In this document: positions 37,368 through 39,830 of the stretch, one piece after another | Layout: each line of letters opens with the position of its first letter | How positions within the stretch are numbered: position 1 is the stretch's first letter | DNA from: a virus | IMG/VR virus record: IMGVR_UViG_3300030406_002347 | Location: 1-39,830 of that record | Reading direction: 5' to 3' (one strand) | DNA: 39,830 nt | Notes under the pieces: model-generated | The model's input: only the letters and a program-made list of their open reading frames with translations | What the model was told of the DNA's origin: nothing | Database searches by the model: none | Translations under genes and position numbers: made by a program

Positions 37368-37389
37368 TTTATTTTCCTTTCTTGGTTGT

Positions 37390-37411
37390 AAGGCAGCCGT
37401 TAAGCTGCCTT
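37390..37411 (-). repeat. Intergenic GGCAGC hairpin, copy 2
   Basis: Perfect 8-bp stem AAGGCAGC / GCTGCCTT with a 6-nt loop. It spans the last codons and stop codon of the ArdC-like gene, so part of the hairpin is translated (Lys-Ala-Ala-stop). On the minus strand it is followed by TTACAACC, not a T-run. Confidence 0.7.
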
Positions 37412-38347
37412 GTTATTATTTGCTTTTTCGTTTAGATCGTGCATGAAGTCCACACCTTGGCTTGCTAAAGTGCAAGCCTTAAATATGGCTTTCTTGTTTT
37501 CCTTCAGGCACTTAGACCAACTATCAAGATACGCTATAGTGTCTTCACTTGGCTCTTGTAGTAGTCCAAAATCGGACATCAGGAAGGCTGCTCCAAGTTC
37601 AGCTACTAATTCCTCAAAAGCATACGAAGGTCTATCATATGCGCTTAAACCACGCTTGAGCCTATGATCTGAGCCAGTCCAGTGCATAAACTCATGTGAC
37701 CTAACTGAATACGCAGCCGAACTACTAGAAAATCTCTCAAACTTAGGCATATGTATTGAGTCATCGGAAGGTCTATAGAATGCGCCACCATTACTTTCAA
37801 ATTCCTTCGCACCTTGGTTGCTAAAGAACTCTTCAACATAATCAATCTTGCTATCTTGATTTTGATCTAGTTCTTTTTCATCTTGCTTACTTGGAAAAAA
37901 CTTTTCTGGTAAGCCTTCAACTTGGCAAGCATTAAACACTGTAAAAGTTCTAAGCATAGGAATGCCAACTTCTTGTACAGTTTCAACACCATTAGAGTCG
38001 GTTGTCTTTTCTTCTCTTGTGAGCTGCTTATAGAAGACAACCATAGTTCCTTTAGAACCTGTTATAACTGGTTTTTTTAGTCCAGTTATTTCTTGCGCTT
38101 GTTTATATGTCATGAAGTAAGGGGAGTCGAAGCCGTTAATACTTGCTGACATAAGAAGCAGCAAGGCATTAATGCCTTTGTAAGGCGTACCAAATGGAAC
38201 AGATCGTAAAGGTCTAGATATTGCTTTGCCTGACTTCCAAGATTTAGTCCAGTTTAACTTGATATTGTTAGCCTTGGCATAATCTAAGGCTTCTAATACT
38301 TGATTTGTTATTACTTGATACACATCTTTTTTCTGTCTTTTAACCAT
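37400..38347 (-). CDS. ArdC-like antirestriction protein with zincin domain
   Basis: 315 aa. The N-terminal domain (DVYQVITNQVLEALDYAKAN, 'PYKGINALLLLM', 'GSKGTMVVFY') is ArdC_N-type (PF08401), a ssDNA-binding fold. The C-terminal domain carries HEFMH at 218-222 and a downstream 'FEELVAELGAAFL', the metallopeptidase pattern of MPTase-PolyVal. In conjugative elements ArdC protects incoming DNA from restriction. Encoded among early genes here, it probably does the same for the phage genome. SD AGAAGGAAAAC. Full length for the family. Confidence 0.8.
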   Translation of the reverse strand: MVKRQKKDVYQVITNQVLEALDYAKANNIKLNWTKSWKSGKAISRPLRSVPFGTPYKGINALLLLMSASINGFDSPYFMTYKQAQEITGLKKPVITGSKGTMVVFYKQLTREEKTTDSNGVETVQEVGIPMLRTFTVFNACQVEGLPEKFFPSKQDEKELDQNQDSKIDYVEEFFSNQGAKEFESNGGAFYRPSDDSIHMPKFERFSSSSAAYSVRSHEFMHWTGSDHRLKRGLSAYDRPSYAFEELVAELGAAFLMSDFGLLQEPSEDTIAYLDSWSKCLKENKKAIFKACTLASQGVDFMHDLNEKANNNKAA

Positions 38348-38796: not shown

Positions 38797-38818
38797 AAGG
38801 CAGCTTAATTGCTGCCTT
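38797..38818 (-). repeat. Intergenic GGCAGC hairpin, copy 3
   Basis: Perfect 8-bp stem AAGGCAGC / GCTGCCTT with a 6-nt AT loop, between the genes at 38835 and 38589. On the minus strand TTTCAAAC follows, a poor terminator tail. Same core as the copies at 35354 and 37390. Confidence 0.7.
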
Positions 38819-39104: not shown

Positions 39105-39425
39105 TTAATCTGTTGAAACTTCATTTACGACTTGCTCACCTATGATATAGGCGTACATATTCACCACCTTTTCAGGTGAAGAAAAATCAGTATAGACTTC
39201 ACCGAAGTTTTGCATTTCATAGTCTTTTATTATGTTGATTACGTTAAAGACTTCTTCACCTAACCATTGAGTCGCCTTGTATGAGCCAATAATATAGTAG
39301 TCTACATTGAAGGCGTGGTGGTGTAGATCGTCTTTATTTTCTTGAATCCAGTCTTCATCTTGCTCACTTAAAAAGTCTACATAGTGGCTCTTAATTTCAT
39401 CATATTTGTATATTGTGTTTTCCAT
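39105..39425 (-). CDS. Small phage protein, first gene of the right cluster
   Basis: 106 aa. 'HAFNVDYYIIGSYKATQWLG' and 'EVFNVINIIKDYEMQNFGEV' followed by 'SPEKVVNMYAYIIGEQVV' form a consistent alpha/beta chain that I associate with small phage early proteins of unknown function. SD TAAGGAAAC. Its upstream region holds the structured element at 39453-39720, so its expression may depend on that leader. Confidence 0.6.
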   Translation of the reverse strand: MENTIYKYDEIKSHYVDFLSEQDEDWIQENKDDLHHHAFNVDYYIIGSYKATQWLGEEVFNVINIIKDYEMQNFGEVYTDFSSPEKVVNMYAYIIGEQVVNEVSTD

Positions 39426-39452
39426 TGTTTCGTTTCCTTATTTGATTGATTG

Positions 39453-39720
39453 GTTACGCTCTAAAGATACCTAAGCTGCTTAGATATCATCACAGCGTAA
39501 ACTGTGTTAAACCCAAACCTAGGACTTATCGCCACTGCTTCTGCCACACCTTGAACTGACTAGGTGCTTTCGGTTTGGTATGGTCGCCACGTTAAGGTCT
39601 GGCTATCGTCTGTACGCTTGGCTCTAGGTAGGTTGGGTTTAATCTTGTTAGGTGTGATTAGAATGCTTCGTTTGAAGCAGAGCGAATTCGACCCTTGTAC
39701 GTTCCCCATTGAGCGTCCCC
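39453..39720 (-). ncRNA. Candidate structured RNA or replication element
   Basis: No convincing gene lies in 39426-39830. By my count GC is about 48% over 39481-39720, against roughly one third in flanking genes. Structure seen: a large hairpin at 39453-39502 (outer 8-bp stem with one bulge, inner 11-bp stem GATATCTAAGC/GCTTAGGTATC with one wobble); a long-range helix pairing 39507-39522 with 39624-39642 (10 bp + 5 bp); local hairpins CACCT/AGGTG and TGCTTC/GAAGCA (39664-39679). It could be an independent RNA, a leader of the 106-aa gene, or an origin. The remaining 110 bp to the window end contain TTGACA (minus, 39815-39810) but no good -10. Confidence 0.5.
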
Positions 39721-39830
39721 TGTTTTGATATGAAACTTGCGATGTCTGGTTTGTGTGTTTTTCCTTCGTTGTTGCTGTTGAAACCATTTATTGATTCTTT
39801 TTCCAAACGTGTCAACAACAATCGTCAACA

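Follow-up and report, generated by a model that had tools for sequence, protein, structure and literature searches.

A structured leader RNA with a conserved 3′ hairpin and an exchangeable 5′ domain at the head of a putative early operon in an uncultured phage

What does a phage genome encode in a GC-rich, strongly folding stretch that holds no convincing gene? The question is raised by the right end of a virus record from an uncultured, probably marine phage; the record has 39,830 bases and is classed as linear, and we analyzed it over its whole length (the window). With a GC content of 0.474, positions 39453 to 39720 ranked at the top of 297 windows of 268 nt (mean, 0.391; standard deviation, 0.041), and both flanks were poorer in GC (0.318 on the left and 0.355 in the right tail), as expected from the original prediction that this block stands well above its neighbors. 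That prediction, made from the sequence alone, proposed a phage-encoded structured noncoding RNA that runs beyond the edge of the window, and it pointed to long-range complementary segments and local stems. The segments are indeed present (TTAAACCCAA at 39507-39516 with TTGGGTTTAA at 39633-39642), as are several local stems. The minus-strand fold of the block was more stable than its shuffles (z = −3.1; plus strand, z = −2.0), and it ranked 13th of 594 across the window after composition was corrected for by regression of folding on composition, a rank that is good, not extreme.

The absence of a believable gene, part of the same prediction, held up on comparison with relatives. The longest open reading frame in the block encodes 75 aa on the minus strand (39560-39787). 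Its 75 open codons speak for a small protein gene, but our search for a family match returned none, and in L062, a relative with 93% identity, the ATG has become GTT, a premature stop interrupts the frame, and 7 of the 8 changed codons are nonsynonymous. The comparison with L062 refutes this reading frame as a gene, and a small protein gene at the locus is extremely improbable.

The block stands at the head of a leftward operon. A sigma70-like promoter is predicted on the minus strand at 39787-39815 (TTGACA at 39815-39810, a 17-nt spacer, and AATAAA at 39792-39787), from which RNA would start near 39780. Its −10 box is weak (4 of 6 positions), and the site is absent from the list of an automatic consensus scan; TTGACA and the 17-nt spacing recur in relatives (TTGACA-17-CATAAG in A2 and TTGACA-17-CATATA or TTGACA-19-TATAAT in type C; the types are described below). 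On the same strand, an RBS-like sequence (AAGGAAAC, 39432-39439) precedes the first gene of the operon (39105-39425), which encodes 106 aa and belongs to phrog_10208, with no function assigned. The block is thus a leader of ∼330 nt between the promoter-like site and the first gene, and the element reaches past 39720 up to the promoter-like site near 39815. The location of this site inside the window, together with the terminase small subunit (TerS) gene that lies beyond it in relatives, argues against the RNA continuing past the window edge.

The operon spans 39425-31782 and includes an ArdC-like antirestriction gene. Because of its gene content and its direction, opposite to that of the structural genes, we infer that it is the early operon, and the leader would then probably be expressed before any other part of the genome. 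In L059, the block sits between leftward small genes and a rightward TerS gene, with an HNH-like gene next; TerL follows the HNH-like gene in related contigs. The identity of TerL was confirmed, and the other gene names come from sequence resemblance. The last 42 nt of the window (39789-39830) recur unchanged at the start of contig IMGVR_UViG_3300030406_000416 (L069/L070). This contig runs on into TerS, HNH, and TerL, genes that the window appears to lack, and the window therefore probably represents a circularly permuted genome that was broken. A cluster of TGTTGA repeats (TTGTTGAACATTGTTGAAACATTATGTTGACGATTGTTGTTGACA), possibly an operator or an iteron array, overlaps the promoter, lying upstream of it in L062 and L070 and at 39800-39830 in the window. 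Hairpins of the form GGCAGC...GCTGCC occur between early genes of the window (38797-38818 and 37388-37413), and similar intergenic hairpins occur in L004 and L005; they may be mRNA processing or stability elements. A strong intrinsic terminator (GAGGTGGGGAAACTCACCTC TTTTTTTT, 31719-31700, minus strand) appears to close the early operon, and the terminator scan found no strong sense-strand intrinsic terminator within 39425-31782 before it.

Just upstream of the RBS of the first gene, the minus strand at 39452-39502 forms an imperfect hairpin of ∼24 positions (UUACGCU-G-UGA-U-GAUAUCUAAG with CUUAGGUAUC-U-UUA-G-AGCGUAA), in which a conserved UGAUGA lies opposite UCUUUA and a U·U mismatch occupies a fixed place. 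In an alignment of seven sequences, six of them distinct, 9 of the 21 hairpin pairs showed double compensatory changes, and none of 500 shuffles was as good. Paired cells made up 91% of the alignment, compared with 79% in shuffles and at most 50% in slid versions; the structure was chosen from the same sequences, which puts the slid versions at some disadvantage, but a double-change count of this size is hard to obtain in that way. All six distinct sequences have G-U at one of the pairs, which fits RNA from the minus strand only, and they pair 19 to 22 of 23 to 24 positions on the minus strand (1 to 3 mismatches) versus 18 to 19 on the plus strand. The sole match in the window to a covariance model of the hairpin was 39452-39502 itself (69.3 bits on the minus strand and 34.4 on the plus strand). 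In relatives the model found only the equivalent site, just upstream of the first early gene; these sequences were used to build the model, so their matches arise by construction, and it is the lack of other matches that is informative.

We ruled out intrinsic termination at the hairpin: the U residues are part of the stem, there is no unpaired T run, and the terminator scan listed no terminator at 39452-39502 on the minus strand. Hairpins cut by RNase III are known from the early leaders of phages, including the lambda N leader and T7 early mRNA. The arrangement here is similar in that a long imperfect hairpin lies between the leader and the first gene, and it differs in the fixed U·U mismatch, in the conserved UGAUGA/UCUUUA, and in that cleavage is only predicted. 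RNase III targets have a minimum double-stranded length of 22 nt (PMC5371410), and the hairpin reaches this ∼22-nt size, which makes it a candidate RNase III-type processing site.

The structured 5′ domain that precedes the hairpin (39503-39786, minus strand) varies among close relatives. We found the window's version of the block, type A, in two other contigs only (L059 and L060; 93 to 95% identity), and searches of viral and genome collections with three patterns likewise returned type-A homologues in L059/L060 alone. At the same place and between the same conserved flanks, other phages carry unrelated sequence: L004 has type B, and L005 and L064 have type C. Between the A-type L062 and the C-type L064, the spacer is 84% identical, the first gene 96%, and TerS 92%, yet the block is only 59% identical, compared with 56.5% for shuffled sequences; at the protein level, TerS is 99 to 100% identical between A-type and C-type phages. 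Two C-type phages share a block that is 90% identical, and their identity drops to 79% in the next gene. The block is therefore conserved among phages of one type and wholly replaced from one type to another, and because near-identical flanks carry unrelated 5′ domains at the same position, this exchange is cassette-like. Three other types at the locus are covarying RNAs as well. The first gene downstream of the leader differs between carriers, which makes gene-specific control unlikely. In L004 and L005, which are otherwise close, TerS is present as two very different alleles, another swapped module near the leader.

Type A is known from two distinct sequences that differ by 11 substitutions in 333 nt, too few for covariation to probe the larger part of the 5′ domain in the window. 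Five of these substitutions fall within a possible 7-bp helix whose 5′ arm (39572-39578, minus strand) reads CCAAACC in the window and ACAACCU in L062 and whose 3′ arm (39513-39519, minus strand) reads GGUUUGG and GGGUUGU, respectively; they make up two compensatory double changes and one change from C-G to U-G. When the same changes were placed at random, a stem of at least 6 bp with two double changes arose at a frequency of 0.0001. The minimum-energy fold of the 5′ domain does not contain this helix, as the energy model favors other pairings, and the helix would make a pseudoknot with one predicted stem (GCCAGACCUU/AAGGUGUGGC). We used tests at the level of single helices because the consensus fold of the whole A and A2 region was not decisive: on the minus strand it was more stable than column shuffles (z = −2.45), with no covarying pair in that fold.

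The main long-range helix of the original prediction fared less well. Both of its 10-nt arms are present on the minus strand (5′ arm UUAAACCCAA, 39633-39642; 3′ arm UUGGGUUUAA, 39507-39516), but L062 has one broken pair (C·U) and one G·U pair, and part of the 3′ arm is shared with the covarying helix, whose partner is 39572-39578. The outer 6 bp (UUAAAC/GUUUAA) are able to stack on the covarying helix. Because compensatory changes occur both in the 3′ hairpin and in a 5′-domain helix, the conclusion that the block encodes a structured minus-strand RNA is well supported. The structured nature of the predicted RNA thus stands; its main long-range helix is not supported, nor is the strand on which it had been read. 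Two direct repeats in the 5′ domain (39560-39576 and 39624-39640) are each partly complementary to 39507-39521, and 15 nt at 39523-39537 (minus strand, CAGTGGCGATAAGTC) match the ColE1 replication-origin region exactly and are one base off in L062.

Searches of known RNA families and genomes placed the leader in no described group. The covariance models of Rfam 15 gave no match at curated thresholds in the window or in 20 related loci, with chance hits only when an E-value threshold was used; c4 and 6S were among the families covered, and the models exclude GOLLD and ROOL, which the original prediction had named as large phage RNAs to search for. GOLLD and ROOL are large, with many GOLLD examples exceeding 800 nt, and are often found near tRNA islands (PMC12286853). 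The leader resembles them as a phage-encoded structured noncoding RNA of unclear function, but it has no Rfam match and the window contains no tRNA or tmRNA. No DNA relatives beyond chance were detected among cultured phages or plasmids, and the literature, within our incomplete coverage of it, yielded no description of such an RNA. Phage leader RNAs are already known as a kind; what is new is a design that combines a constant hairpin with a swappable domain.

We assign a probability of roughly 0.5 to the reading that the locus encodes a structured early leader RNA that bears a hypervariable domain, effector or regulatory, and is probably released from the mRNA by cleavage at the RNase III-type hairpin. 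Minus-strand transcription from the promoter at ∼39790-39815 would produce, in order, a folded domain of ∼280 nt, the imperfect hairpin of ∼24 positions, and the RBS of the first early gene. An RNase III-type cut at the hairpin would then leave two products, the early mRNA and a discrete early RNA. As an effector or a regulator, the exchangeable 5′ domain would act in trans on a partner that differs from host to host or from one competing phage to another, a kind of partner suggested by the exchange pattern. The constant tail hairpin and the block exchange together suggest an RNA part under pressure to change, and exchange of an RNA domain amid near-identical flanks is the expected outcome of selection for diversity. 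If the reading is right, an unrecognized modular phage RNA is present in dozens of environmental viral contigs and is missing from Rfam and, in the DNA collections searched, from sequenced cultured phages. It would also make testable the question of whether noncoding RNA, beside proteins, takes part in early host takeover or immunity in phages. A bolder and distinctly tentative proposal is that these leaders form a class of phage RNA in which the 3′ processing hairpin stays constant and the 5′ effector domain is hypervariable and exchangeable. Such RNAs would be expressed first in infection and diversified against host defense or competing phages, as the RNA counterpart of swappable antidefense genes.

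Among other explanations, we considered a cis-acting antitermination leader, in which the nascent RNA binds host RNA polymerase and allows read-through of the early operon. In HK022, putL lies just downstream of the early promoter, and the putRNA is ∼70 nt with two stem-loops (PMC9378689). The leader position of the block is clear and, given the predicted early promoter, would match that of putL, also a structured nascent RNA; the RNA is independent of any one downstream gene. However, the leader is a multipart RNA of ∼330 nt in which a variable domain is followed by a distinct conserved hairpin of 24 positions, and wholesale swapping between close relatives would be unexpected if the partner were host RNA polymerase. 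The operon also offers little to read through, since no strong sense terminator precedes its end, and this weakens the case for a put-like antiterminator; overall, we regard antitermination as unlikely. The P4 CI RNA and P1-type c4 RNA are likewise structured RNAs in early phage operon leaders, with specificity types at one locus. An antisense-type specificity element of this sort, or a ColE1 RNAII-like primer, could serve RNA-based immunity or copy control, with the swaps representing immunity or incompatibility types. The leader position directly after the predicted early promoter and the switching of types amid conserved flanks agree with such a role, as do the partly complementary direct repeats and the 15-nt identity to the ColE1 origin region. 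Unlike the leader, which has no Rfam match, c4 (RF01695) and ColE1 RNAI are presumably both families in Rfam. No repressor, integrase, or other lysogeny gene occurs in the subset of early proteins scanned, and the window holds no antisense target for the leader beyond chance length. The ColE1 match was noticed post hoc, is equaled by 2 of 500 shuffles, and is missing from types B and C, and we consider RNA-based immunity or copy control unlikely as well.

A DNA site, either a cos or pac site beside the terminase genes or a replication origin, would agree with the position of the block, which in relatives has the early operon on one side and TerS on the other, and with the HNH-like gene that follows TerS, as in many cos phages. 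Yet the nearly identical TerS proteins of A-type and C-type phages go with unrelated blocks, which argues that the block is not the recognition target of TerS, and compensatory changes and G-U pairs that fit one strand only are signatures of RNA. A DNA site is accordingly improbable.

The structured leader RNA also has counterparts farther afield, as TerL relatives carry different leader RNA types at this locus. The g2 type was recovered from 31 contigs by pattern search, and an alignment of 15 g2 sequences showed double changes in 15 of 42 pairs. Between L099 and L107, an 8-bp stem differs in sequence (GAAAGGTC/GACCTTTC in L099 and GATAAGCC/GGCTTATC in L107) and is paired in both. The core of type C, which is shared with L071, L196, and L201, has two compensated pairs; CCAAC/GUUGG changes to CCACC/GGUGG in this core. 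The window-type 3′ hairpin is also found in L196 and L201, which carry a 5′ motif (CAGCCYCNNTTYGGCA) that, within 1.37 Mb of fetched loci, occurs only in the 5′ part of such RNAs (g2, L071/L196/L201, and L095). From these shared parts, the types resemble mosaics assembled within a single broad superfamily of leader RNAs, and the 3′ hairpin ties the window to it. We rejected the window as a member of the g2 family itself, given that its best hit to the g2 covariance model (R1) scored 6 bits, which is at chance level; the link between the window and g2 is only indirect, via parts shared with intermediate types. A search of 85,000 prokaryote genomes for the g2 family returned one match, as expected by chance. 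The leader RNA does not appear to be universal, since in the TerL relatives L074, L077, and L086 the early operon seems to begin without a structured block upstream of TerS. A different 3′ element is shared just upstream of the first early gene by L098, L102, L105, L099, and L107; in this second constant element, an AACUGU/ACAGUU-type stem forms the outer part, and a GUGY-loop hairpin and CUGAUGA...UGAAACAG make up the rest.
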